IMG/VR virus record: IMGVR_UViG_3300005582_000149
Location: 1 to 20,596 of that record
Direction: 5' to 3' (one strand)
From: a virus
Length of the DNA stretch: 20,596 nucleotides
Shown here: one piece after another, positions 3,652 to 17,923 of the stretch
Layout of the letters: every line of letters begins with the position of its first letter
Numbering within the stretch: position 1 is the stretch's first letter
Program-made: the position numbers and the translations under genes
Notes under the pieces: generated by a model
Told to the model about the DNA's origin: nothing
Database searches by the model: none
The model's input: the letters and a program-made list of their open reading frames with translations, nothing else

Positions 3652-4191
3652 TTAAGAAGCTGGGAACATAGGTTGAACGCCCATCGTATATGCCGACCCC
3701 ATCAAGGCGTTGAGCGTATTGGGCTTTTTAGGAGCCATAGGATTTATAGTTCCCACGGTGGGAGTCAGGTTGTTTGGAGTACCCGTTGGGTTCGTCCCAA
3801 TTACGGGAGGAGCCGATAAGTTGGTGGATGCTGGGGCTGGAGGAGGAAGCGGGGTGGGGGGCGCAGGGGTAGCCACTCCCATAGCTCCAGCGGCGGTAGC
3901 TAACGGATTCTGAGGCTGATTCTTGTAGTGGTTCTCCAAAGCGGCAACGCCACGTTCCTGATTCGCTGCTTGCGGCATCATTTGGGCTGCTTGAACTTGC
4001 CCCGGCCTTGCCGTTCCCCGCGACACCATCCCAGCGACTCGACCAATGTCAGTTGTGGGGCGACCAACAGCCGTGGCTCTTGTGTTACCAAGACCTCCAG
4101 AAGCCGCAATGTTGCCACTGAGTCCCGCAGAGAGGGACTGTGCTCCAAAATCGTTGCTGGTGCGGTCTGGGCCGGATGCTGACATTTTCAT
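3652..4191 (-). CDS. Low-complexity Pro/Ala/Thr-rich virion-associated protein, 179 aa
   Basis: This 179-aa protein is not recognised. The first half is Gly/Ala/Ser-rich with many Arg and no membrane helix (GLSGNIAASGGLGNTRATAV). The second half is a Pro/Thr/Asn-rich disordered tail (ATPAPPTPLPPPAPASTNL), ending in a small hydrophobic patch (NALMGSAYTMGVQPMFPAS). No enzyme motif is present. Such disordered proteins between tail-tube and internal proteins are often packaged or act in assembly; that is inference from position. It starts 2 bases after the 315-aa stop (TAATTATG) and shares that junction with the next gene. A second ATG two codons downstream (MSASG) is an alternative start. Confidence 0.55.
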   Translation of the reverse strand: MKMSASGPDRTSNDFGAQSLSAGLSGNIAASGGLGNTRATAVGRPTTDIGRVAGMVSRGTARPGQVQAAQMMPQAANQERGVAALENHYKNQPQNPLATAAGAMGVATPAPPTPLPPPAPASTNLSAPPVIGTNPTGTPNNLTPTVGTINPMAPKKPNTLNALMGSAYTMGVQPMFPAS

Positions 4192-6130: not shown

Positions 6131-9100
6131 TTAAGCGGTGAAGGCAACGACTGCCCCAATCCAAGGGTCGGTGCTCGTCGTGCCAGTAGTAGGGATGGAC
6201 GTGATCGTGTTGATGGAGTTGTACACAACTGCGCGGAAGTGGTAACTCTGCCCAACAGTAAGTCCTGAGACGACTTTCGTTGAAGCTGTCGGGCTGAATC
6301 CTGCTACGGTGTTCGTGCTGGATGTGAGCCATGTGGAGGAAGCCACCAGCTTGTATTGGAAATAGCAGGTAGCCGCGATGTGATTCGGCGTAAAGGTTCC
6401 CGCCAGTGTCGCGGAGCCTCCACCAATTGCGCTTGCGACTCCGGTGGTTGCAGCAGGCACCGCTACGGCAGCAGTATTAACCTGAATCGTGTAGGTGCTC
6501 TTGGTGCCGGGGTTATTGGACGCAATGTTGAGCGTTGTGCTCCGGTAGCCCTTTGCTCCAGTGGCAGGAGAGAAACGAACAACCATCGTGTCGGAGTTGC
6601 CTGCCGAGATGCTAGTGGGTGGAGTGCTCGTAATAGAGTGCTCGGCCAACCATCCGGTAAGGGTTGCGGCAATGCTTGAGAGGGTAGCAGTCCCAGCGTT
6701 GATGAGCTTCACGGGGATGTCGATGAACGCCCCACCGATGGCAGTAGAATAGCCTGTTGCCCCGTCGTCGGGGATAGTCGTGCCGTCTGGCACCTGCACC
6801 ACCAAGTCTGGAGCAAGCACACCTGAGAAGGAGAGTTGATCCTCCTGAATAGATACCGAGCCGCTGAAATATCCGCACTGGATATAGGCTCTTGCTCGCA
6901 GGATTCCGTTTGTCGGAAGAGAGATGCCTGTCAGCGTCCATCCTCCTGAAATGCGGGTGCCTTGCCCAAGGCGTGTCCAAGTCGTGCCTCCGTCTTGGCT
7001 AAGGTCGAACACGGTTATCTGCGTCTCAGGCAGCGTGCCGCTACGAAGCCACTGCACGGCTGTTTGACCGACGACAGACAAGGTGCTAGACCCTGTTCCA
7101 TTGATGAGTTTGGCGGCATAAGTCGCAGACCCACCTGCTAGCTGGAATAGACCCCCCGTTAAAAGTGCTCCATCTTCTTGGACGCACAGTGAGTACACGT
7201 TTCCCGTTGCAGCGGCAACGAATGTGGTGTCGTTTGCGCCTGTTGAAGTCACACGTTCGACCCGCGAAGTGCTGGCTGGGTAACTCGTAGATGACCCGAT
7301 TAGTAGAGTTCCATCCGTTTGCGGCACAAGGGAAAGAGCCGATGAAGGAACTAAGGTGAAGCTCGTATCCTTGACCCCTAACGGAGTTAGCCGGATGACT
7401 CCACGATTATCCACTCCTGAGATATAGGTATTTTTTCCACCAAGTAGGACATTGCCTGATGCGTCCAAATTGATTACTCCAGACTCCGTTCCTCCTGCCG
7501 TCAGATTCGCGGCAAAAGTGCTATCAATAGACCCGTCCGAGTTGAGTCTTGCTACGCACTTTTGGGGGGAGCCAGCAATAGAATAGAAATTCCCGCATAC
7601 CATGATCTTCCCATCCGATTGAGGGATAATGGAGTAGATAGATGAATCACAAGGACAGGAAAAGGCGTTCAACGAAGGGACTCCAGCAGATGAGAAATCA
7701 ATTTTGGCGATACTCTTTCGAGTGCTCGTAGCCCCAAGAGTAACGGTTGTGAAGCCGCCAGCAATCAAAACGGATCCACTTGGTAGTAGTGCAATACAGT
7801 ATACGACTCCATCTGTAGATAAGAGGAAAGTTCCATCTATTGACCCGTCTGAGTTGACCCTGCGAATGCGTTGGGGGGTGAAATTACCCCCGATCAATGC
7901 CTTTCCATCGGGCAACTGAGCCATGCAGTACACGGTGTTATTTACCCCTGCACCCGACTGCGCTTGCACAGTTCCCGAGGAATCGACAAAAGCATAACGA
8001 TTGCGCGTCTGTGTACCAACAGAGGTGAAGCCCCCTCCTAATCCGGTGATCCCTGTCGTGCGCTGGGATATAGCCAGAACAGAGTCTGAAGGAGAGGGTT
8101 GCCACGACGAGTCTTGAGAACCGGGGCCGGGAGTGGCTGCGCCTGAGAAAGCAACCGTGAAGCTTGCTTCGTCTCCGTCATCGGAGTGAATCGTCATCGT
8201 GGTTGTCTTTGTCCCTGCGGATGTTGGGGTTAGGTCAACAGTGAACGTCACGGACTGCCCCGGCAGCACGGGTGAAGAAGGCTGGGTTACGACAGCATAT
8301 TGCCCTGTCGGAGAAAAAGTCACAGGCGTTGCATCAAGAGTCAGATCATCAAGGCCAATGTTCCTAATAGTCACCACCTTGGGCGAACTGGAGCCTACCT
8401 GAGTGCTCGGGAAGTAAACTGTTCCGGCTCCTGAAGTCAGAATAACTCCGTCAATCTCTACCTCAATTTCAGGGTCAATCGGTGCGGAGACTGTCGCTTG
8501 CTGGATGCCTTCGCTGTGGGAGTCAGAAGGAAAAGCCGTTGCTCGGATGTCGTTCGTTGAACCTGAAAGAGAAGACGTCGGAACGATCTGCCACCCTGAA
8601 GGTGTGCGTGATATAGTTCCAAGTAGCTGACTGTACGGACCTCCGGTGCTTAATTCAAACTCGACTCGCTGCGTCTCTTCACTTGTTCCTGTCCTGTCCC
8701 ACTTGATGAGGTCTGCGTTCACGACATACAGGCTGTTGGCTGCTGTGCCGTTGTAGAGTCGGGCAACACGGTTACGGGTTGTGCTGCCAACTGAGGTGAA
8801 AGAGCCCCCTGCGAGAATCTTCCCATCGGTTTGCAAAGCAAGCGCATTCACACTGCCATTTACGTTCGGGTTGAACGCTGCCTCAAGAGTCAGGTCGGGG
8901 AGGAGTCTGGCAAGTCGGTTGCGGTTGGTGCTGCCAACTGTGGTGAAATCACCGCCAAAGATGACGCTTCCATCAGTCTGAAGAGCCAGCGTGTTGACGG
9001 CTGCGGATGGTGTCGGGATGCTCGGAACGAGGGTGCCGTCTGCATTGAGGACGGCTAGGCGTGCTTGGATATGGCTTCCGACATATAAAAATTCTCCCCC

Positions 9101-9229
9101 TACGATGATCTCCCCCGTGGGTAGTGCTGTGATGCTATATCCAGTGTTGTCGAGTCCAGCGCCCACGGCGAAAGATGTGTCAGTGGTTCCGTCCGAGTTG
9201 AGGATTGCGATGCGGTCAGGGATGCTCAT
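6131..9229 (-). CDS. Giant virion appendage protein: half propeller, linker, ASH, complete 7-repeat delta-60 propeller, linker, ASH, FN3
   Basis: This is a 1032-aa protein. It starts abruptly in the last strand of a propeller blade (MSIPDRIAIL), then has three delta-60/DUF5122 repeats to residue ~160 (EIIVGGEF, SVIFGGDF, KILAGGSF). A ~85-residue linker domain (161-248) and an ASH/choice-of-anchor-D domain (251-365) follow. A second propeller at ~371-710 has seven repeats by my count. A second linker (711-795), a second ASH domain (803-920) and an FN3-like domain (~927-1020) complete it. The two linkers are clearly related (EETQ/PETQ after WDRTGT/WLRSGT), so the propeller-linker-ASH cassette is duplicated. 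There is no N-terminal virion-attachment region or signal peptide, unlike the 1095-aa protein, whose broken propeller this start would complete. It probably forms part of a host-recognition appendage; the start has no Shine-Dalgarno sequence. Confidence 0.85.
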   Translation of the reverse strand: MSIPDRIAILNSDGTTDTSFAVGAGLDNTGYSITALPTGEIIVGGEFLYVGSHIQARLAVLNADGTLVPSIPTPSAAVNTLALQTDGSVIFGGDFTTVGSTNRNRLARLLPDLTLEAAFNPNVNGSVNALALQTDGKILAGGSFTSVGSTTRNRVARLYNGTAANSLYVVNADLIKWDRTGTSEETQRVEFELSTGGPYSQLLGTISRTPSGWQIVPTSSLSGSTNDIRATAFPSDSHSEGIQQATVSAPIDPEIEVEIDGVILTSGAGTVYFPSTQVGSSSPKVVTIRNIGLDDLTLDATPVTFSPTGQYAVVTQPSSPVLPGQSVTFTVDLTPTSAGTKTTTMTIHSDDGDEASFTVAFSGAATPGPGSQDSSWQPSPSDSVLAISQRTTGITGLGGGFTSVGTQTRNRYAFVDSSGTVQAQSGAGVNNTVYCMAQLPDGKALIGGNFTPQRIRRVNSDGSIDGTFLLSTDGVVYCIALLPSGSVLIAGGFTTVTLGATSTRKSIAKIDFSSAGVPSLNAFSCPCDSSIYSIIPQSDGKIMVCGNFYSIAGSPQKCVARLNSDGSIDSTFAANLTAGGTESGVINLDASGNVLLGGKNTYISGVDNRGVIRLTPLGVKDTSFTLVPSSALSLVPQTDGTLLIGSSTSYPASTSRVERVTSTGANDTTFVAAATGNVYSLCVQEDGALLTGGLFQLAGGSATYAAKLINGTGSSTLSVVGQTAVQWLRSGTLPETQITVFDLSQDGGTTWTRLGQGTRISGGWTLTGISLPTNGILRARAYIQCGYFSGSVSIQEDQLSFSGVLAPDLVVQVPDGTTIPDDGATGYSTAIGGAFIDIPVKLINAGTATLSSIAATLTGWLAEHSITSTPPTSISAGNSDTMVVRFSPATGAKGYRSTTLNIASNNPGTKSTYTIQVNTAAVAVPAATTGVASAIGGGSATLAGTFTPNHIAATCYFQYKLVASSTWLTSSTNTVAGFSPTASTKVVSGLTVGQSYHFRAVVYNSINTITSIPTTGTTSTDPWIGAVVAFTA

Positions 9230-9293
9230 AGAAATACGCTTGCGTTTACAGCCGACTTATACTACCACTAAGGTCAACCACACTCACCATAAC

Positions 9294-9839
9294 ATGAATG
9301 CTTTCAACGCACAAATACCAATAGTACCCGTTAGTGTCAAGATAAGCCACCAACTCATGCGCTTGTTTTGGTCAAGAAATAGAATTGGTTATCGACCAGA
9401 CCAAGGTGTCCCACAATATCAAGGGCTGTTGTCATGCTGGTCTTGGATTGGAAGTTTAAACGCAGGAGGGTACGGCAAAACAAAGGCCAATGGTCAGACC
9501 GTTCTTGCCCACAGGCTATCTTGGCTCATACACTTTGGCCCAATACCGGATGGTGTGGATGTGCTGCACAAATGTGATTGCAGGAGTTGCGTCAATCCAG
9601 ACCATTTATTTCTTGGAGATGTCCAAACGAACTGCGCTGACAGAATTTCCAAAGGCCGAAGTAATACGGCTCGCGGGACAAGGCTTCCGCAGTCTCGTCT
9701 GACAGAGCATAAAGTTGCCCAGATACGAAAACTTTTACACCAAGGCGTAGTGCAGACAAAGATAGCTCGCGACTTCAACACTACGCAAAAGAACGTAAGT
9801 AAAATCGCTCTGTACAAGTCGTGGAAGCATGTGCGCTAG
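9294..9839 (+). CDS. HNH homing-type endonuclease (free-standing)
   Basis: This is the only supported plus-strand gene, 181 aa from ATG 9294. It has the HNH_3-type core of phage homing endonucleases: CWSWIGSLNAGGYGK (48-62), AHRLSW (72-77), then LHKCDCRSCVNPDHLFLGD (91-109), in which H92, N101 and H104 form the H-N-H triad and the Cys residues may bind a structural zinc. Residues ~133-178 form a helix-turn-helix DNA-binding tail (TEHKVAQIRKLLHQG, TKIARDFNTT). The open frame runs further upstream, but only by antisense extension through the 1032-aa gene; ATG 9294 or 9357 are the plausible starts, neither with a Shine-Dalgarno sequence. A TATACT hexamer at 9258-9263 could be a -10 element. It lies exactly between two halves of an apparently split propeller gene, which fits an invasive element. 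Confidence 0.88.
   Translation: MNAFNAQIPIVPVSVKISHQLMRLFWSRNRIGYRPDQGVPQYQGLLSCWSWIGSLNAGGYGKTKANGQTVLAHRLSWLIHFGPIPDGVDVLHKCDCRSCVNPDHLFLGDVQTNCADRISKGRSNTARGTRLPQSRLTEHKVAQIRKLLHQGVVQTKIARDFNTTQKNVSKIALYKSWKHVR
9312..9340 (-). promoter_or_regulatory. Weak promoter candidate antisense to the HNH gene
   Basis: On the minus strand there is a perfect -35 TTGACA (9335-9340), a 17-base spacer and TATTTG (9312-9317) as a poor -10 lacking the final T. It would transcribe towards the 1032-aa gene, which has otherwise lost the upstream context. Only the -35 is convincing. Confidence 0.2.
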
Positions 9840-9841
9840 CT

Positions 9842-10951
9842 TCAAATATATTCGACTTTCCCTAGCTTTGCGAGATAAGCAAACATCGCTGCCTCAACCT
9901 CCCCACTATGCTCTGACGGCTTCTTAAAAGGGCGTGTATCCCAGTAGTGGTGCTGCTTGCTGCGGTCTTTTCTAAAGTGGTCAAAACCCACCAAGCTTAT
10001 TTTACTGATGCCAATTATTTGGAGGAACCACGCAGCGACCATCAATCCGCTAGTTGGTATCAGTTTTGGGGCCTCAATATCAAATCCGCACTCCCATTTT
10101 GCGAAAGCACGCAGATCACGGGTAGTCTCAGCCCAAAACCAGTGAGGGATAGCATAAAGGTGTTCGGGGGTATACGCAGGGCCACCCCCGGATTCACCGT
10201 GAGTGTATATGACACGGGAGGGGCGCTCATCTACGGTCAAGGGCAAACGCCCCCTTCCATAGGTGCTCCACAAAGTTGTACGAGTCCCTATTTTGTTCTC
10301 ATACCCTTTCAAAATATAGCGATTAAACCGAACAATCTCATTGAAAGCATCGATCTGCTCCCCTCTGTCTTTATCCAGTAGCGAAGGGCCGTTCCCTACG
10401 AGCACGCAGGTAGTTTCTGGGGTGACTTGAAAAAGTGTCTGCCACTCGCCAATAATGTACCCACCTTTCACTTTGACTCCGATGCCTCCAGCTTGGATTA
10501 TCTTCCGAATCCACCAATTTTCAGGACGGACTGTAGGGTGTAAATTCTGCCCTTCCCAAAGTCTCTTGCTAGGAACATAAGAAACAGAGAAGATGAAGCG
10601 CTTGGAAACACGGGACATTTCTTTAAGCACTGGATCAATCTGTTCGGGGGTCAGATGCTCCAGCATATCGAACGAAGTTATCACGTCGTACTCTTTATTT
10701 CCGGCTGGGATACTTGCTACGTCACCTAGAATATCCGCAAAAGGGGATGCAAAGTCCATTCCTACTGCCTTAGCAGAGGGGCATAACTCCAGAAAACTTT
10801 TGATAAACTCATTTCCACCACACCCAACGTCTAAAACGGATGCCGGGTTCCATTTGACTAGCAAAGGTATTGCTCTGCTGCCGTGGTTAAGATGGCCGTA
10901 ATTAGCACTACTAGCGTAAAGACCTTGATATTTAGCTGTCTCTGGGTTCAT
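9842..10951 (-). CDS. Fusion: class I SAM methyltransferase + GT29 (sialyltransferase)-like domain
   Basis: This is a 369-aa protein. Residues ~25-175 form a class I methyltransferase: SAM-binding motif I VLDVGCGGNEF (39-49), an acidic D66 in VGMDFASP, and the SFDMLEHL motif (93-100) typical of methyltransferase domain families 11/23. Residues ~180-360 carry GT29-like sialyltransferase motifs: an L-like motif CVLVGNGPSL (182-191) running to EIVRFNRY (205-212), an S-like motif IPTSGLMVAA (298-307) running to ISLVGFDHF (318-326), and a VS-like HHYWD (334-338). GT29 enzymes transfer sialic acid or related sugars from CMP donors. One protein could thus methylate and glycosylate the same glycan. 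DUF115-type proteins share the GNGPSL element and are the alternative. It starts ATGA-coupled to the GT8-like gene and converges with the HNH gene, 2 bases apart. Confidence 0.8.
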   Translation of the reverse strand: MNPETAKYQGLYASSANYGHLNHGSRAIPLLVKWNPASVLDVGCGGNEFIKSFLELCPSAKAVGMDFASPFADILGDVASIPAGNKEYDVITSFDMLEHLTPEQIDPVLKEMSRVSKRFIFSVSYVPSKRLWEGQNLHPTVRPENWWIRKIIQAGGIGVKVKGGYIIGEWQTLFQVTPETTCVLVGNGPSLLDKDRGEQIDAFNEIVRFNRYILKGYENKIGTRTTLWSTYGRGRLPLTVDERPSRVIYTHGESGGGPAYTPEHLYAIPHWFWAETTRDLRAFAKWECGFDIEAPKLIPTSGLMVAAWFLQIIGISKISLVGFDHFRKDRSKQHHYWDTRPFKKPSEHSGEVEAAMFAYLAKLGKVEYI

Positions 10952-11628
10952 AAGTTAGTAGCGTGGGACATTCTCGCAAGTTCGTCTATCCAAAGACTTG
11001 AATAACCACAATCTTGAGTCGGGATGAACCAAGGCCCACCATCTGTATAGTGGATGATTGAAAGTTCGTTGATGGGTTTTTTCTCGTCATAATCGACGAG
11101 GTGGTTCCACCTTGATGGTAGTTCGCCAACTAAATCTTCTGAGGCTAACCAGTTGAATCTATGAAGGTCTAAACCGCTCGCCGTATTCACGTACTCAGGA
11201 GTCAGAGCTTTGCATTTAGCGCAGTTCATAAGCATCACACTACTCCAGTTCTTTTTGGGGTAACGAGTCTGCGGCTGATTGAGAAATTTTGTTGTCTCTG
11301 ATGGTTGATGATCGTGCTTAACGACATGCACGGCAAACGCTTCGTCTCTAAGCGCCCAAAGTTTAGCAATGTCGTCAACTACGATAACGTCTGAATCCAT
11401 AAAAATAGCCCAGCCGTCAAAGTCGCACAGAAAAGGTACCAAGAAACGAGAGAATGAGAAATCAGTTGCTTGTGTTGGTGTTCGCTCCCGATTGAAGAAA
11501 GACTTCAACTGAGGGAGCGCCAGCGGTGCTATTGAGATCGGCTCAGAAGCATGGCGGATCAAACTATGCGCTGCCGCATGGTAGGCGACTGTTTCATGCT
11601 GGTCATAACCAATAAATACTTTAATCAT
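10948..11628 (-). CDS. GT8-like glycosyltransferase
   Basis: This is a 226-aa protein. It starts MIKVFIGYDQHETVAYHAA, the usual opening of a GT-A/GT8-like enzyme, and has TDFSFSRFLVPFLCDF before the metal-binding D-S-D at residues 78-80 (IFMDSDVIVVDD). An acceptor-side region with SVMLMNCAKC follows, and a late HYTDGGPWF motif shared by many phage and bacterial members. These features indicate a retaining-type transferase that uses a nucleotide-sugar; donor and acceptor are unknown. Its start is embedded in the stop of the 1095-aa appendage gene (ATGA) and its end is embedded in the start of the methyltransferase/GT29 gene, so all three are likely to be made together. That makes the Thr/Ser-rich PTPDVS tail encoded just upstream an attractive acceptor, as inference only. 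Confidence 0.85.
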   Translation of the reverse strand: MIKVFIGYDQHETVAYHAAAHSLIRHASEPISIAPLALPQLKSFFNRERTPTQATDFSFSRFLVPFLCDFDGWAIFMDSDVIVVDDIAKLWALRDEAFAVHVVKHDHQPSETTKFLNQPQTRYPKKNWSSVMLMNCAKCKALTPEYVNTASGLDLHRFNWLASEDLVGELPSRWNHLVDYDEKKPINELSIIHYTDGGPWFIPTQDCGYSSLWIDELARMSHATNL

Positions 11629-14600
11629 GGTGAAGGAGTAGGGCTAACGTCAGGGGTAGGGCTGACATCCGGTGTAGGGCTAACGTCAGGGGTAGGGCTG
11701 ACATCCGGTGTAGGACTGACATCCGGGGTAGGGCTAACGTCAGGGGTAGGACTGACATCCGGGGTAGGGCTAACGTCAGGGGTAGGACTGACATCCGGGG
11801 TAGGGCTAACGTCAGGGGTAGGGCTAACGTCAGGGGTAGGACTGACATCCGGTGTAGGACTGACATCCGGTGTAGGACTGACATCCGGTGTAGGACTGAC
11901 ATCCGGTGTAGGGCTAACGTCAGGGGTAGGGCTGACATCCGGTGTAGGAGTCGTTGATGGGGAAGGAGTTGGGAATATACCGTCACTCCACGCCCCAACA
12001 ACGGCTACCCGTCCATCCTCAAGCAGTGTCACGCCATAAACGGCTGCGGGGTTAGATACCGTGTCAATTTCACTTGTGAACGAGGTGTCGAGAACTCCAG
12101 AAGAGTCGATGCGGGCGAGCCATGCTTTTACTCCTCCTCCAATGTTGGCGAAGTCTCCACCTACGATGATGCTGCCGTCGTCTTGGAGGGCCATGCAGCG
12201 CACGACACCATCTGCATCTGGGTCGAACCCTGCGTCAATAGCTCCAGTTGAGTCTAGGCGGGCGATATTGTTCCTAGCTGATGCTGCAACTGATGTGAAG
12301 TCTCCCCCTATGATGATCTTGCCGTCAGGCTGTATGAGGACGCAGTGGACGTTTCCGTTTGCTCCCGGGTCTGTGTCAAAAGTCCCATCAACTGAACCAT
12401 CGGCGGTGTTGATACGAGCAATTCGATAACAATCTGTTCCGCCTATGCTGTTAAAGATGCCGACAAGAATGGCTTTTCCATCGGGTTGGTGGGCAATCCC
12501 GTAAATAGCTCCATTTGCGTCTGCATCCCAAGTCAGATCGACTGCCCCCGGCGCTGATGGGTTCTGTGAAACTCCGGTCAGACTGACGGTAAACGGGCTT
12601 TCGTCGGCATCTGTGCTGGTGAGGGAAAGTGTAGCCGTGCGAGTGCTGGAGGATGTCTCCTCGTCAACTGGGTAAAACGTGACCGTGAACGTCGTGAACG
12701 TGCCGCTTGCTAACTCCGTAACGGATAGGGCCGAGGGTATGTAGTCAGAGGCATTTGCCCCGTTTACAGCAACAGCTAGACTACGTAAGGGAACTGAGTC
12801 GTTGCCGACGTTCTTGATAACAAAAGTCTCAGTGGCTGAACCACCTGTCACGATGCCAAAATCTACCGTGTTTCCACCATTGGTTAAGACTAGGTTACTG
12901 GGGAGTTGCACTAACTCGACTTGGATGTCAGCGGCTACCCCTGTCCCTGCGACATTGATAACGTAAGTCGTCGAAGCGTTGCTTGTGATTATGATGGTGG
13001 CACTCTTGTAGCCGGGAGAGGTTGGCTTGAAGTAGATGCTCCATGCCGCCGAATTAGAAGGGGCAATGGAAGCAGGAAATTGCTGCACCGTGAACATGGC
13101 GGCATCCTCCGCTACACCTGATGTCTTAGTCGTGGAGAACCCAGATAAGGACTCAAGGCCGATGTTCGTCAGCGTGAGCGCCAAAGTGGACTGGCCCCCA
13201 ACCGAAACAGCATCTGCTGTGCTGGCCCCCGTCGCAGGGGCTTCACTCACAAGATTATCGCCCCCTGTAGTAGAGACTAGGAGTTCAGGCTGCGGGTCAG
13301 TGAATGCTATGCAGAGATTGCTTGTCACGCCTGCACAGACAAGTTTGGCGTAGTAGGTGACTCCGCGAGTCGCCCCCGTGACAACAGTTGTCGTCAAGCT
13401 AGCGGTATTCAGGGTATGACTACCAATCGACAAAGCGTTGTAGCTCCCCAAGAAGCCTCCGCCGAAGTTCGGGTCAGTCGCGATGGAAAGGTACATCGTT
13501 CCTGTCGGAACCGTCTTGGCTACGTTGCCAGAAAGCGTGAAGCCAGTTGCCGTCTCTGCGGTGAGACTGAGAGAAATGTCTGTCGGGTTCCCTGCGGTGC
13601 TCGGAGACTTGACGTAGAACATCCGAGTCAGGTATCCGCCTTGGTCTGGGGAAACAGTTACACGGGCAAGCACCGTTGCAGGCCAGCGGGTCGGGTTGGT
13701 TGCTGGGTATGTCTGTGAGAACTGGGTGTCCCAAAGGCTGTAGCGATCATGCAAACAGGCAGGGATATTGATTTTCAAATCCCTTCCATTGAAAACAATC
13801 TCGGAGCGCAACATTGGCGTTTCCTGCGGGATCAGGGGAGAAACCTGAGTCCAATAGGCGGCATTAAACGTCGAACCAGATGTGTGTGCTGTAGTGCATT
13901 TGTAGTAGGTTGGGGAACTACCTACTACACGGGTGATGTAGGCATCCACGGCATACACGGTGGATGCCGCCCAGACAGTCCCTGTGTTCCACCCCGAATC
14001 CCCATTGAAGATCGGTTTCGCGAGTGTCCACCGCTCCACAAGAGTGTAGTCGCACGGCCCATCAAAGGCATCCGCAAGCCAGACTGGCGACCAAGAGAAA
14101 GAAGAAATCGGGGAATAGATGTTTCGTGGGTCGCTCTGGATTGCCTGAATATTGATGTAGTTCAGGACTCTGGGCCAAGTGTAGTTATCTCGGTAGTAGA
14201 GAATGCGAGTCGCAACTCCATTGTTGGACGTTCCTGCCAGTCCTGCTGCCTTCTGGGTCGTTTTGGTAGACCAAAGGGAGTTGATCACGGACACGTTGCT
14301 ATACGTTCCGTCTGCTGCCACTCCAGAGGCTTGTGTGCCTGCGGCTACTTTCTGGGTTTGAGTAGCTTTGACAGTGTTAGTGTCCAAATCTACCTCATAC
14401 GCAGTATTGACGACGCTTGTCTTCTCCCGAGTCACTTGGACGGAGACATACAGACTGTCCAACTTCGGTTCCCCAATGCGCTGCTCCTGCGTTGCCGTGA
14501 TCTCGTAGTCCGTTGTGTCGAGAGGCGGATTCGGTGGAGCAGGGTAGGTCGTTGACGGTGTTGCCGGAAGGGTGCGGTAATCCGCACGGGGGATGACAAA

Positions 14601-14912
14601 CGTCTGGTTGATGGCAGGCCAAGGACCAGAATCGCTGATTTCCCAGTTGTATAGGTTTTGGGAAACTTGGTCCGCTACGTACCACCTCTGATAATTTCCC
14701 TTCTCGTCCGGCTGAGTCTGAAGGCAGAACTTGTGGTCAGGCCAAGACTTGAGCTTGGAGATGTCGTTGTGCGGAGTCCCGTAGGCAGGGATCGAGTCGT
14801 TGGGCGACTGAACAACATTGAAGTTCTCCACCACAAACACATCGGTGCTCGTAGGGTTAAAAGGAATCCGCTGCGAGGGCAGCAGTTTTGAGGCGGAGTT
14901 CGCAGTAGCCAT
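11625..14912 (-). CDS. Giant virion appendage protein: N-terminal virion-specific region, CBM-like, two ASH/Ig-like domains, partial delta-60 propeller, 17 x PTPDVS tail
   Basis: This is a 1095-aa protein. Residues 1-300 are a unique, aromatic-rich region probably used for attachment to the virion. Residues ~308-357 look like a small carbohydrate-binding module (VWAASTVYAVDAYITR, then TAHTSGSTFNAAYW). Residues ~437-540 are Ig/FN3-like. Two choice-of-anchor-D (ASH-like) domains follow at ~541-660 and 661-783. Delta-60/DUF5122 propeller repeats run from 790 to 980 (DGKAILVGIF, DGKIIIGGDF, DGSIIVGGDF, DGRVAVVGAW). The fourth repeat breaks off after GAWSDGIF and is replaced by 115 residues of Pro/Thr/Ser-rich tail with 17 PTPDVS units. 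The propeller therefore has only three and a half blades and cannot close alone; see the 1032-aa gene. The stop overlaps the next gene as ATGA. A virion surface or host-adhesion role is inferred from the domains. Confidence 0.85.
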   Translation of the reverse strand: MATANSASKLLPSQRIPFNPTSTDVFVVENFNVVQSPNDSIPAYGTPHNDISKLKSWPDHKFCLQTQPDEKGNYQRWYVADQVSQNLYNWEISDSGPWPAINQTFVIPRADYRTLPATPSTTYPAPPNPPLDTTDYEITATQEQRIGEPKLDSLYVSVQVTREKTSVVNTAYEVDLDTNTVKATQTQKVAAGTQASGVAADGTYSNVSVINSLWSTKTTQKAAGLAGTSNNGVATRILYYRDNYTWPRVLNYINIQAIQSDPRNIYSPISSFSWSPVWLADAFDGPCDYTLVERWTLAKPIFNGDSGWNTGTVWAASTVYAVDAYITRVVGSSPTYYKCTTAHTSGSTFNAAYWTQVSPLIPQETPMLRSEIVFNGRDLKINIPACLHDRYSLWDTQFSQTYPATNPTRWPATVLARVTVSPDQGGYLTRMFYVKSPSTAGNPTDISLSLTAETATGFTLSGNVAKTVPTGTMYLSIATDPNFGGGFLGSYNALSIGSHTLNTASLTTTVVTGATRGVTYYAKLVCAGVTSNLCIAFTDPQPELLVSTTGGDNLVSEAPATGASTADAVSVGGQSTLALTLTNIGLESLSGFSTTKTSGVAEDAAMFTVQQFPASIAPSNSAAWSIYFKPTSPGYKSATIIITSNASTTYVINVAGTGVAADIQVELVQLPSNLVLTNGGNTVDFGIVTGGSATETFVIKNVGNDSVPLRSLAVAVNGANASDYIPSALSVTELASGTFTTFTVTFYPVDEETSSSTRTATLSLTSTDADESPFTVSLTGVSQNPSAPGAVDLTWDADANGAIYGIAHQPDGKAILVGIFNSIGGTDCYRIARINTADGSVDGTFDTDPGANGNVHCVLIQPDGKIIIGGDFTSVAASARNNIARLDSTGAIDAGFDPDADGVVRCMALQDDGSIIVGGDFANIGGGVKAWLARIDSSGVLDTSFTSEIDTVSNPAAVYGVTLLEDGRVAVVGAWSDGIFPTPSPSTTPTPDVSPTPDVSPTPDVSPTPDVSPTPDVSPTPDVSPTPDVSPTPDVSPTPDVSPTPDVSPTPDVSPTPDVSPTPDVSPTPDVSPTPDVSPTPDVSPTPDVSPTPSP
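11638..11943 (-). repeat. 17 tandem 18-bp units encoding (PTPDVS)17
   Basis: Seventeen consecutive 18-base units run without interruption. On the plus strand there are two main versions: GTAGGGCTAACGTCAGGG (7 units, numbers 1, 3, 6, 8, 10, 11 and 16 from the left) and GTAGG(G/A)CTGACATCCGG(T/G) (10 units). All differences between units are synonymous in the minus-strand frame (Pro CCT/CCG, Thr ACC/ACA, Asp GAC/GAT, Val GTT/GTC, Ser AGC/AGT), so every unit encodes the same six residues. The opposite strand is open too (GVGLTS repeats), as a by-product of the 18-base periodicity. Confidence 0.97.
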
Positions 14913-14946: not shown

Positions 14947-15492
14947 TCAAGGCGCACCGTAGTAGAGCTTGCCCAAGACTTGGCACTTCAGGCTGTCGAT
15001 GTCCGTGTGGTTGGGGAAACTGTGATCAATCAGGTGACGGGAGACTCCCGCTTCAGATGCGTGATCCATCTGAACTGAGTTTGGACGGGTAATCTCAATC
15101 ACTGTTCCACCCATGTTACGGATTAGCTCCGCTTCGTTGTCAAAGCGGATGTCGTCAATCACGACTCCACGGATGACTCCACTCAAGACATCACTGAGCA
15201 AAGTCTCAATCCGAAAACGTCCTGCGCGAATCCAGATGTCTCCGCCAACCATATTGCGGCCCCAATCGGTTCCGAGGGACTGGTAGACTTCTCGGATAGA
15301 CTTACCACAAAGTTCAGGGGGTCTTGCCAGCTTGTCCGTGACTGGGGTCAGGCACCGGATCATCGCCTTGATTGGGTCGGCAAATGACATGCGATCATAG
15401 CCTAGGGACAAAAAGGCTTGGGCGGCTGTGGTTTTGCCTGCTTGAGCAAGGCCCGTAAAAGCTACCAGAATGGGTTTAGAGTTTGTCGTCAT
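14947..15492 (-). CDS. Deoxynucleoside monophosphate kinase (dNMP kinase-like P-loop protein)
   Basis: From ATG 15492 the product is 181 aa. It has a Walker A loop GLAQAGKTT at residues 14-22, the SFADPIK motif at 36-42, LGTDWGRN at 73-80, and VVIDDIRFDNEAELI at 110-124. These are the landmarks of the phage T4 gp1-type deoxynucleoside monophosphate kinase family, which phosphorylates dNMPs (including modified ones) to dNDPs for phage DNA synthesis. I chose the ATG that starts just before the P-loop strand; an ATG at 15525 would add 11 residues (MGRFGNTSLPK) and extend the overlap with the glycosyltransferase gene. Being next to a glycosyltransferase, it could serve modified-base metabolism, but ordinary dNTP supply is the simpler reading. 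Confidence 0.87.
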   Translation of the reverse strand: MTTNSKPILVAFTGLAQAGKTTAAQAFLSLGYDRMSFADPIKAMIRCLTPVTDKLARPPELCGKSIREVYQSLGTDWGRNMVGGDIWIRAGRFRIETLLSDVLSGVIRGVVIDDIRFDNEAELIRNMGGTVIEITRPNSVQMDHASEAGVSRHLIDHSFPNHTDIDSLKCQVLGKLYYGAP

Positions 15493-16339
15493 TTTTGGAA
15501 GTGAAGTATTGCCGAACCTCCCCAATGATTTTGGGGTTTGCAGATTCTGTCCACGCCAATAATCCGTTGGAGGCTATTTGTAAATCTTTTTCAGAATCAA
15601 TTTTGGCAACCCGTTCTCTCCGGCCAATGTAGTCGCGATCTTCCATCGTTCCATGCCATTCATGGTAACAAGTCCCTTGGATATGCCCCAATATGCAGGG
15701 ATAAAGATTGCTCTTCCATGCGTCATAGCGAGCCGGATTAGCCCCCACATTCTGCTGGAAAGTAGGTGGCAGCTTGGAGCCTTGAAAAGCCATAGCCATC
15801 ACGGTGTCCCCCGCCCCTGATGCCGCAAAGGGGAATAACCCTCCAATACGCCCCCAGACATCTCGGCGCATCGCCCATGCGAAACCGGGATGGCTCCGCC
15901 ACTGCATATCCAGTTGCGTCTCTGCCACCGAGCATTTGCTCAAGGATGCCTTTCCATCTGGCCCAGTCCAAACGGCTCGATCAAACATCTGCACTACCTC
16001 GCAGGTTTCTAATGCCCGCTCCGTATCCTTTACCCAGTTGGGGTTGTCAAACCAAACATCGGCATCAATCCACGCCAAGTTGGTGAACTCGGCTGGAATA
16101 ACCTTAGCCGCAAGATTGATGGCGGCTTCCTTCTGCCACAACATTTGGTTATGCGACTCGATAGGAATCTGCTGCCAGTTGGCAATGCCCTTGGTGGTAG
16201 TATTTGCCCCTTTAAGATGGGCTTCAACCCCAAAGACCTTAACCCCGTCGCGTTTCATCTGCCGGAGAAACCGATGCAGATTGGCCTGTGGTCGCTTGAA
16301 ATTGCCAAAGTTGAAGAAGCAGGTGACGACTGCGAGCAT
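15476..16339 (-). CDS. GT-A fold glycosyltransferase (galactosyltransferase-C/GT2-like)
   Basis: This is a 287-aa protein. The start VVTCFFNFGN, the QMLWQKEAAINLAAK helix, the metal-binding D-A-D at residues 92-94 (LAWIDADVWFDNP), and the acceptor-side motif HPGFAWAMRRDVW followed by a GAGD segment are characteristic of GT-A glycosyltransferases that transfer a sugar from a nucleotide donor. The late YHEWHG...DRDYIGRR motif is also common in phage members. Donor and acceptor are unknown: virion protein, DNA base, or host surface glycan are all possible. It lies 5 bases after the endolysin and overlaps the dNMP kinase gene by 17 bases, so it is probably co-expressed with it. No membrane segment is visible, so the enzyme is cytosolic. 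Confidence 0.85.
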   Translation of the reverse strand: MLAVVTCFFNFGNFKRPQANLHRFLRQMKRDGVKVFGVEAHLKGANTTTKGIANWQQIPIESHNQMLWQKEAAINLAAKVIPAEFTNLAWIDADVWFDNPNWVKDTERALETCEVVQMFDRAVWTGPDGKASLSKCSVAETQLDMQWRSHPGFAWAMRRDVWGRIGGLFPFAASGAGDTVMAMAFQGSKLPPTFQQNVGANPARYDAWKSNLYPCILGHIQGTCYHEWHGTMEDRDYIGRRERVAKIDSEKDLQIASNGLLAWTESANPKIIGEVRQYFTSKNDDKL

Positions 16340-16344
16340 AGAGG

Positions 16345-16953
16345 TTAGAAGACATCTTTGCCCGAAGCCTTACGCGCACGCATCTCGGCAAGCATCTCAC
16401 TCTCCTTCATACCTCTCGCCCACACAGGACGAAGCTGGAAGTGGGGTTGATCCTGAATGCTAGACCAGTCGCCGCCCCACTCAAACCCAAGATTCTTGCC
16501 AAGCTGTCCAACGGTCTTGTAGGCGGGGGACTCATCAATATAAGCCCCATGCACAAACACGCCGACATCAAAGGCGACCCCAAAGTTGTGGTTAGAATAT
16601 CCTCCGCGAGCGTTGGTCACGACCTTGCCAGAAGAAGAGCGTCCTTGGGCATACAACGAGTTTTGCTCGTCGTAGGTGCGAAGACCGGAGATCAGCTTGA
16701 TAGTGATGCCGCTTGTGGCTGCTTTACGCACTAGCTCACGGGCTTTTTCCCGTAGGTTAGGGTGGAGAGTCGCGATGACTTTCTCGCTGCGCTCATCGAC
16801 CTTTTCCCCTGTCAGGAGAACAGTCGGAGGCTCAGGAGTAGCTTTGAGAGGCAGGGCTTTGTCAAGCGCAGCCAAGGTCTGTGTCCCCGGCTGACCGTCC
16901 GCATCCACTCCCAAACGTGTCTGAACTGTCTTTGTAAATTCTAGTGGCGACAT
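16345..16953 (-). CDS. Endolysin: M15-family (VanY/CwlK-like) peptidoglycan peptidase with N-terminal PG-binding motif
   Basis: From ATG 16953 the product is 202 aa. Residues ~5-33 resemble a short peptidoglycan-binding repeat (VQTRLGVDADGQPGTQTLAA). Residues ~60-175 carry the M15 peptidase signature: LISGLRTYDEQ (88-96), SLYAQGR (99-105), S-x-H-x-x-G-x-A-x-D at 120-129 (ligands H122 and D129), and the third zinc ligand H171 in HFQL. Relatives such as the phage T5 endolysin and Bacillus CwlK cleave L-Ala-D-Glu or D-Ala bonds in cell-wall peptides. I chose the ATG one base after the phosphoesterase stop (TGATATG); in-frame ATGs at 16971 and 17037 would overlap the upstream gene and add residues with no domain. 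No signal peptide is seen, so release should depend on the holin-like proteins upstream. Confidence 0.9.
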   Translation of the reverse strand: MSPLEFTKTVQTRLGVDADGQPGTQTLAALDKALPLKATPEPPTVLLTGEKVDERSEKVIATLHPNLREKARELVRKAATSGITIKLISGLRTYDEQNSLYAQGRSSSGKVVTNARGGYSNHNFGVAFDVGVFVHGAYIDESPAYKTVGQLGKNLGFEWGGDWSSIQDQPHFQLRPVWARGMKESEMLAEMRARKASGKDVF

Positions 16954-16954
16954 A

Positions 16955-17923
16955 TCAATAAACTCGACCATTGATGATTTTGTGATTCGTGACTTCGTAG
17001 TTGCCGTCTGCCTGTGTGTCAACCATAACAAATCCATGATTCCAGCGGTTTACGATGGCATAGTCGGGACTCAAATCACAGAGACAACCTGTTGACCAGC
17101 ACGACGAAAGTTTCTTGTTCAGTCCAGTGCTTTCGGTGTGCTCAGAGGTGCGGTGCCAATGCCCACAGATGAGGGACTCTTGAACGCGCATCCAAATGCC
17201 TCTGGCGGGGTTCACGGGGGAGGACATACCTTGAGGTAGTTCATGCCCGTGATAGATAGGCAAATCCCCCAGACGAATCAGGGTCAGCGATGGCACCAAT
17301 TCGATGCCAAGCTCGTCAAACTTGAGAAGAACAGGGAGTTCAAAATCACTCACACCAAGAAGGACGGGGGCGTTCTTGACGAGGAACATCTCCATTCTTG
17401 CTTCGTGGTTCCCAATTTTATAGAGGATTCGGGCCTTGGGAAACTGCTGGCGGAGGAAGAAGAGGAACTGGCGGAGGGCATCGAGTTCATCTGCGAGTGA
17501 TCGCCTTGGGTCTTTGTCGTGTCGGCTTACTCCGTAGAAATCACCAATGTCTCCATTGAGAATGATAACGTCGGGCTTCTTTTTCTTCCCATAAGCTATG
17601 GCTGCTGCCAAGGCTACTTCATCGTGGTACGGGATGTGGATGTCAGACAAGATCAACGTCCGCAAAGCTCCGCTAAGAACTATCGGCTCCCGCTTAACTG
17701 AGTGCGTTTTTGGGAGTATATTCTTCTGCCATCCGAGAGGTCTGAATCCGCTCTTATCGGCTACGGGGCTATTCGCTCCACGTATAGTCCTGACGACACT
17801 GCGAGCCTCGTCCACGGTCTTGAAGACCTTTGGCATCTCTTTGTTCATTACCCGCGCTATCGTTCGATTTTCCGTGTCAGGAAAGAGAGCAATATACTCG
17901 CGGGCAATTTGGGTCTTGTTCAT
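16955..17923 (-). CDS. Calcineurin-like metallophosphoesterase
   Basis: This 322-aa protein has the full set of metal-binding motifs of the calcineurin-like phosphoesterase fold: D-I-H at residues 94-96 (ILSDIHIPYHD), GD at 124-125 (LNGDIGDFYG), GNHE at 171-174, H-G-H at 225-227, and GHWH at 254-257. These ligands coordinate a two-metal centre that hydrolyses phosphomono- or diesters; the substrate is not deducible (nucleotide, 2',3'-cyclic phosphate or nucleic acid end are all possible). Residues 1-50 form a helical, HTH-like N-terminal extension (TQIAREYIALFPDTENRTIA), which recalls DNA-binding regions of other phage phosphoesterases. The ATG overlaps the 29-aa gene (ATGA) and the stop lies one base before the endolysin start, so it is embedded in the lysis run, an unusual place for a nucleotide or nucleic-acid enzyme. 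Confidence 0.88.
   Translation of the reverse strand: MNKTQIAREYIALFPDTENRTIARVMNKEMPKVFKTVDEARSVVRTIRGANSPVADKSGFRPLGWQKNILPKTHSVKREPIVLSGALRTLILSDIHIPYHDEVALAAAIAYGKKKKPDVIILNGDIGDFYGVSRHDKDPRRSLADELDALRQFLFFLRQQFPKARILYKIGNHEARMEMFLVKNAPVLLGVSDFELPVLLKFDELGIELVPSLTLIRLGDLPIYHGHELPQGMSSPVNPARGIWMRVQESLICGHWHRTSEHTESTGLNKKLSSCWSTGCLCDLSPDYAIVNRWNHGFVMVDTQADGNYEVTNHKIINGRVY

Follow-up and report, generated by a model that had tools for sequence, protein, structure and literature searches.

How can a single beta-propeller come to be divided between two genes that have other genes between them, and are the two parts still used together? The question is raised by a virus record of 20,596 bases (IMG/VR record IMGVR_UViG_3300005582_000149), which we analysed whole and refer to as the window. 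Two large genes, which we name A and B, and the cassette of smaller genes between them are all on the minus strand. A sequence-only reading of the window had given the coordinates and reading frames of A and B, which we find as described, and had proposed that A carries four and B three blades of one Delta-60 propeller, left open when an ancestral gene was interrupted by a block of ~2.7 kb. Sequence comparison confirms that A and B carry complementary halves of what would be one seven-bladed propeller, but it moves the division: the cut lies inside blade 4, so that the halves are 3.5 + 3.5 blades. The distance from the stop of A to the start of B is 2,395 bases. The block is not passive, and consists of exchangeable genes resembling glycosyltransferases and methyltransferases, headed by a Thr/Ser/Pro-rich tail that is fused to A.

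Both proteins match the Delta-60 family (DUF5122) in Pfam, with E-values of 1.5e-51 in B and 5.8e-29 in A, and both include immunoglobulin (Ig) domains of the ASH/HYDIN type. There are nine DUF5122 repeat matches in the window, seven of them above the curated cut-off, and the whole-protein scores are 172.8 and 100.5 bits for a cut-off of 27. Pfam and alignment confirm that A has blades 1-3 and the start of blade 4 (strands a-b). The break in A had been placed after VVGAWSDGIF; by alignment, the tail begins after VVGAWSD, at GIF. B opens with the strands that A lacks, as had been predicted. These are strands c-d of blade 4 (MSIPDRIAILNSDG...), and they are followed by three blades and then by a linker. 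In profile comparisons with the intact second propeller of B and its linker, the A half alone fits best to columns 1-180 and the B half alone to columns 189-427, and the halves are therefore complementary. Between them, only ~8 residues of the b-c loop are missing in the profile alignment. The joined halves align with the intact second propeller end to end (411 columns, E-value 8e-68) and match its count of seven blades, and each of the two propellers has an ASH-type domain before it and a homologous linker after it. The A half prefers its register only weakly (E-value 1.4e-36, with 1.6e-35 for the next one), which is to be expected of repeats, so the anchored ends and the joined alignment carry the case.

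Among the structural models, that of the second propeller of B (residues 368-711) matches 4yvd with Z 27.0 and a root-mean-square deviation of 2.7 over 277 aligned residues, and it resembles seven-bladed WD40 proteins. Fold searches with the whole model of B give Ig/HYDIN-type and propeller matches, none of them a close relative, and a sequence search of solved structures gives weak beta-trefoil repeat matches only. The model of A has a mean predicted local distance difference test score (pLDDT) of 51, and its N-terminal part was left out of the interpretation because of this low confidence. The model draws strands at residues 955-963 and 969-975, in blocks of pLDDT 53-66.

The split is not confined to the window. 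Relatives were collected by viral scans aimed at A, B, a neighbouring gene of 315 amino acids (aa), a cassette enzyme of 276 aa and a control gene. Twelve records reach the cut: the window, L014, L015, L016, L017, L018, L019, L020, L021, L023, L029 and L034. (L013 has A and B identical to those of the window and is counted once with it.) Ten of the twelve include the stop of A and the start of B, and L021 and L023 end within the tail; L022 and L024-L028 stop short of the cut, while L039/L056, L040 and L044 begin past the start of B. The same b-c loop is the point at which A exits the propeller in 12/12 records, and a tail rich in Thr, Ser and Pro takes over there, starting after VGxW and two more residues. 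B opens with the same half-blade in 10/10 records having its start. Identity to the window goes down to 49% for A and 44% for B. Since the split is found in all twelve records that reach it, down to ~44-54% identity, it is not a recent private interruption. The proposal of an interrupted ancestral gene thus survives in part, favoured by the complementary halves and by the unsplit seven-blade units usual in bacterial relatives, but not as a recent event private to this virus.

An uninterrupted phage homologue of ~2,000 aa, which the sequence-only reading had suggested searching for, does not occur among the relatives that we found, a set drawn from the scans aimed at A, B and the neighbouring gene plus 19 further records, many of them fragments. 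An unsplit phage ancestor is therefore deduced from bacterial proteins alone. The 19 further records have no B; one of them (G003/L238) has the start of A, an N-terminal fragment on a contig already included as L027. The loci L236-L257 have a metallophosphoesterase mostly 81-85% identical to that of the window, and, the start of A in L238 apart, neither A nor B was found in these fragments. Against named phages, tblastn with B finds two Stenotrophomonas phage records (31% identity over 14%), and the N-terminal 671 aa of A find no match. Genome contigs gave no relative of A. Distant Delta-60 phage proteins (L012, L035, L059-L072) have their propellers inside one open reading frame (ORF), but they are not orthologues of A or B and we set them aside. 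One other Delta-60 phage protein, of 761 aa (L069, 7803-10088), has a PTPTATPTP tail at its end.

For the bacterial comparison we took the best 80 of 194 Delta-60 relatives of B (L073-L152), of which 29 name Verrucomicrobiota in their titles. A single hidden Markov model of the joined halves fragmented on the repeats and was uninformative for bacteria, and blade counting was used instead. The same linker occurs 50 times in 28 ORFs of this set, with two of the 50 cut by the contig start. The other 48 linkers are preceded by seven blades in 31 cases, by 14 in nine, by 28 in two, and by 8, 13, 19 or 27 in six. Because 42 of the 48 come after 7, 14 or 28 blades, seven is the norm. By the same count, the first linker of B follows four blades, one of them partial, and the missing portion is supplied by A.

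Could the two parts be joined after all, by an intron, an intein or programmed DNA excision? The complementary ends are compatible with joining, and nothing further points to it. No Rfam family reaches the gathering score in the window, and no intein family appears in the Pfam matches of A and B with E-values up to 1. Direct repeats across the block have 6-8 nucleotides (nt), not above shuffles in any of the ten records (shuffle means 6.2-6.8), and no record has the block missing. We give joining practically no credence.

The half-blade that opens B (residues 3-21) has a mean identity of 0.87 over ten records, with 13/19 positions invariant. It is the most conserved of 28 half-blades; the other 27 have mean identities of at most 0.74. 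The amino-acid difference in this segment is 0.13, compared with 0.58 at four-fold silent sites, the latter being like the rest of the gene. Conserved residues together with diverged silent sites indicate selection on the protein and not recent copying. Purifying selection thus acts strongly on this orphan half-blade, which makes assembly of A and B in trans plausible. We infer that a half-blade which stands alone under such constraint must have a partner, for which strands a-b of A are the obvious candidate.

The tail of A in the window includes 17.3 copies of an 18-nt unit (11638-11948) that reads PTPDVS, although the records are metagenome assemblies, in which repeat copy numbers may be compressed. 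In the model of A, the 10-residue blocks from residue 981 onward have mean pLDDT values of 37-49. The ten complete tails have 89-148 residues with a Thr+Ser+Pro fraction of 0.68-0.99, and the tails are of four kinds: PTPDVS, TnAPP, TnEEP and SP. All four Thr codons are used in nine of the ten complete tails, so their composition is not just the result of recent DNA slippage. The composition is therefore preserved as the repeat units are amplified. Mucin repeats follow the same pattern.

The cassette differs among records. In the window and L014 it has a GT8 gene and a methyltransferase-GT29 gene (plus HNH), and in the window both GT8 and GT29 are above the Pfam cut-off. L017 has a GT2 gene and a GT2-like gene of 276 aa. 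The 276-aa gene is also found in L016, with GT2 and FtsJ-like genes; in L015, with a 423-aa gene that has an FkbM methyltransferase end (L029 has genes of the same two sizes); and in L018 and likewise L020, with a 204-aa methyltransferase. L019 has a 277-aa gene and a 195-aa gene resembling a 191-aa gene of L016, and L034 has a GT9-like and a Capsule_synth-like gene. The cassette genes of L014, L020 and L029 were assigned by likeness to those of other records. Whatever the content, the first cassette gene is within 4 nt of the stop of A in 10/10 records, and the last one overlaps the ATG of B by 4 nt in seven of the ten. The gap before B is 20 nt in L034, and 612-613 nt in the window and L014, where it contains the HNH gene. 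Given this tight head-to-tail packing, A, the cassette and B would seem to form a single operon with coupled translation.

The HNH gene suggests another origin for the split, in which an endonuclease invaded the gene and divided it, as in the split nrdA of phage Aeh1. The HNH_3 gene does lie within the block in the window and L014, and split phage genes with reassembling products are known (PMC2988022). The HNH gene is however present in just these two of the ten records, where it sits at the edge of the exchanged block, and the other eight leave no room for it before B (seven overlaps, and the 20 nt of L034). It follows that the HNH gene did not cause the split, which is older, and we consider such an origin very improbable.

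Between two of the relatives, L014 and L017, the tail and the cassette change as one unit, with the break at the first tail codon. The DNA of L014 is 90% identical to that of L017 up to base 3679 of L014, and the tail starts at 3680. Similarity returns at 6529, six bases into B (start codon at 6523). The last 320 residues of A in L014 side with L017, its cassette is 85% identical to that of the window, and the first 100 residues of its B side with the window (57 versus 29 informative sites), with a mixed signal after them; L014 is mosaic elsewhere too, and the comparison gives neither the direction of the exchange nor its donor. The kind of tail also goes with the kind of enzyme: the 276-aa GT2-like gene is in the cassette of 7/7 records with a Thr-rich tail that reach B, and of 0/3 with other tails.

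Relatives of the 276-aa enzyme are found in other phages as well. We kept 80 of 258 in viral contigs and scanned for a Thr/Ser/Pro-rich stretch of 40 residues in a plus-strand ORF within 3.5 kb of the enzyme. Outside the family, such a stretch is present in 16/73 loci (eight different stretches after removal of repeats). A control scan around the metallophosphoesterase finds 0/51 in distant loci and 1/76 in all new metallophosphoesterase loci, the one being the tail of gene A itself. In L160-L164, small proteins unrelated to A carry the stretch as a C-terminal tail, and genes downstream of them resemble methyltransferases and glycosyltransferases. With tailed proteins standing beside relatives of the enzyme in other phages, the tail-plus-enzyme module seems older and wider than the split propeller.

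Other features of these loci are as follows. In L160 (1582-4346), L161 (1822-4352) and L162 (2462-4322), the small proteins with Thr/Ser-rich tails are directly before methyltransferase-like genes and the relative of the 276-aa enzyme, and L160 and L161 have a likeness of the 315-aa gene downstream. Internal Thr-rich stretches are found in unrelated phage proteins beside relatives of the enzyme in L214, L229, L230, L195, L196, L166-L170 and L173.

In our proposal, A and B belong to one phage appendage as two subunits with a single seven-bladed propeller in common. A would give blades 1-3 and strands a-b of blade 4, B would give strands c-d and blades 5-7, and the ring would close in trans. With the cut exactly in the b-c loop of blade 4, the tail of A would leave the ring at that point as a flexible stalk. 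The glycosyltransferases and methyltransferases of the cassette would then O-glycosylate the stalk, producing a mucin-like bristle on the virion, with possible uses in masking of the particle, adhesion, and binding of a receptor or of mucus. We think it probable both that one ring is closed in trans by the two proteins and that a mucin-like stalk, glycosylated by the cassette enzymes, is displayed from the loop at the cut. Since the conserved half-rings flank both stalk and enzymes, recombination within these flanks could exchange the two as one module. A further step, which we take tentatively and with somewhat more doubt than belief, is to regard the split propeller as a socket. The half-ring genes would flank, and be co-translated with, an exchangeable module of stalk and glycosyltransferase/methyltransferase genes; the whole bristle could be swapped with the ring untouched, and related modules would sit on other phage proteins.

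A number of observations weigh against this proposal. The orphan half-blade of A is unremarkable in its conservation (0.65, within a range of 0.60-0.74 for A). The pairwise identities of the A half and the B half have a Spearman correlation of 0.52 over 45 pairs, which is moderate, and we do not use co-evolution of the halves as support; the A half tracks the linker of B better (0.80), and the B half tracks the second propeller better (0.78). The tail of L014 has 25 of 26 Thr codons as ACA, so slippage does shape tails. The 276-aa protein is under the Pfam cut-off for GT2 (20.5 against 23.3 bits), the glycosyltransferase of the L015, L018, L019, L020 and L029 cassettes rests on this protein, and the 195-aa gene of L019 matches no Pfam family. 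Regarding the tailed proteins of other phages, only five of the 16 stretches (L160-L164) are at or near a C terminus upstream of the enzymes, the rest being internal to other proteins, and the genome region of the control gene is not the one in which glycosyltransferases tend to be found, which makes 16 versus 0 suggestive only.

The moderate correlation would agree with the halves being relics, the insertion having broken the ring and each half now folding with itself or with another copy, with the shared propeller not restored. In the model of B alone, residues 1-30 are of low confidence (block pLDDT 57-69) and nearly strandless, with no strand of at least three residues, as relics might be. 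Against this, the c-d half-blade of B is the most conserved of all 28 while its silent sites have diverged, and its sequence is kept in 10/10 records. Relics are in our judgement improbable.

A stronger competitor, although still an unlikely one, is that the halves do pair and that the tail is a flexible and perhaps unmodified spacer, with other targets for the enzymes of the cassette: sugars on the host surface (superinfection exclusion), the DNA of the phage or different virion proteins. Phage glycosyltransferases that act on the host surface or on DNA are known, and the window has a gene outside the cassette that also looks glycosyltransferase-like (15476-16339). A spacer of this kind would leave unexplained the link between tail type and enzyme set, the change of tail and enzymes as a block, and the presence of the 276-aa enzyme near other Thr-rich proteins in unrelated phages. 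We thus keep the glycosylated stalk as the preferred explanation. The features of the locus are collected in Table 1.

Table 1. Positions in the window of genes A and B, their parts, and the genes between them.
Feature	Coordinates	Strand	Remarks
Gene A	11625..14912	-	1095 aa, with an unassigned N-terminal part, then Ig/ASH-type domains, the half propeller and a tail rich in Thr, Ser and Pro
A residues 541-788, two ASH/HYDIN-type Ig domains ahead of the half propeller	12549..13292	-	Pfam, approximate boundaries
A residues 789-977, half propeller: blades 1-3 and strands a-b of blade 4	11982..12548	-	
A residues 957-977, orphan strands a-b of blade 4	11982..12044	-	
A residues 978-1095, mucin-like tail	11628..11981	-	PTPDVS repeats, Thr+Ser+Pro 69%
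Cassette gene 1: GT8-family glycosyltransferase, 226 aa	10948..11628	-	start overlaps A stop by 4 nt
Cassette gene 2: Methyltransf_25 methyltransferase fused to GT29 (sialyltransferase-family) domain, 369 aa	9842..10951	-	start overlaps gene 1 stop
HNH_3 endonuclease, ~181 aa from ATG at 9294	9294..9839	+	opposite to neighbours
Gene B	6131..9229	-	1032 aa, with a half propeller and linker 1 followed by an ASH domain, the complete seven-bladed propeller, linker 2 and beta domains at the C terminus
B residues 3-21, orphan strands c-d of blade 4	9167..9223	-	most conserved half-blade
B residues 3-161, half propeller: strands c-d of blade 4 and blades 5-7	8747..9223	-	
B residues 161-235, linker 1	8525..8749	-	homologues are linker 2 and the linkers of Delta-60 proteins from bacteria
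B residues 371-715, intact second propeller, seven blades	7085..8119	-	

Beyond the operon, the gene at 15476-16339 has 287 aa and reads like a glycosyltransferase, with no Pfam match above cut-off and no PHROG match. It overlaps the next ORF (14947-15525), which is similar to deoxynucleoside monophosphate kinases. A peptidase of the M15/VanY type, possibly an endolysin, is at 16345-17037.

Propellers completed in trans are known from Sec13, with either Sec31 or Nup145C as the partner. As in Sec13, a second chain would close the ring of A and B. The difference is in the shares, one donated blade in the case of Sec13 and 3.5 blades per chain here, with the cut inside a blade. Bacterial Delta-60 proteins, many of them from Verrucomicrobiota, have the same blades, the same linker and the same seven-blade units as A and B, but theirs are unsplit and have no enzyme cassette inside. 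In open papers, by their titles and the starts of their abstracts, our literature search met neither a split phage propeller nor a phage mucin-like tail with its own enzymes, and in open papers it met no split structural ring that encloses glycan genes.

Three further systems are compared here. Split phage enzymes include nrdA of Aeh1 with mobE, genes 39/60 of T4 with mobA, and gene 43 of phages 25 and 44RR (PMC2988022). As at our locus, one protein is made from two genes with others in between, and the halves have been proposed or shown to assemble in trans (PMC2988022). Those are enzymes split by a homing endonuclease or by untranslated sequence, whereas the protein cut here is a structural propeller, divided in a surface loop, and the cut holds glycan genes and a stalk, the HNH gene being optional. 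In homing endonuclease gene (HEG) islands, nuclease genes are at the borders of exchange between phages (PMC10448857). The HNH gene similarly edges an exchanged block; unlike in the islands, different cassettes occupy the same place also in records without a nuclease. The mycobacteriophages Che8, Corndog and Myrna have glycosyltransferases that modify their own structural proteins (PMC12363180). The enzymes are likewise phage-encoded in our case, and would modify a structural protein of the phage here too. The targets in the mycobacteriophages are capsid and tail tube proteins, and the split propeller and the mucin-like repeat tail that we find are not described in the accessible part of that paper.

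So far, split phage proteins have been seen chiefly among enzymes, as accidental results of endonuclease insertion. At this locus, selection seems to have retained the cut in a structural protein, where it appears to serve as the site of a swappable surface-glycan module. Such a locus would be the bacterial-virus counterpart of mucin-like glycoproteins, with the scaffold, the enzymes and the exchange site in one operon, and it would open the surface glycans of phages, and their diversity, to direct tests by genetics and mass spectrometry.

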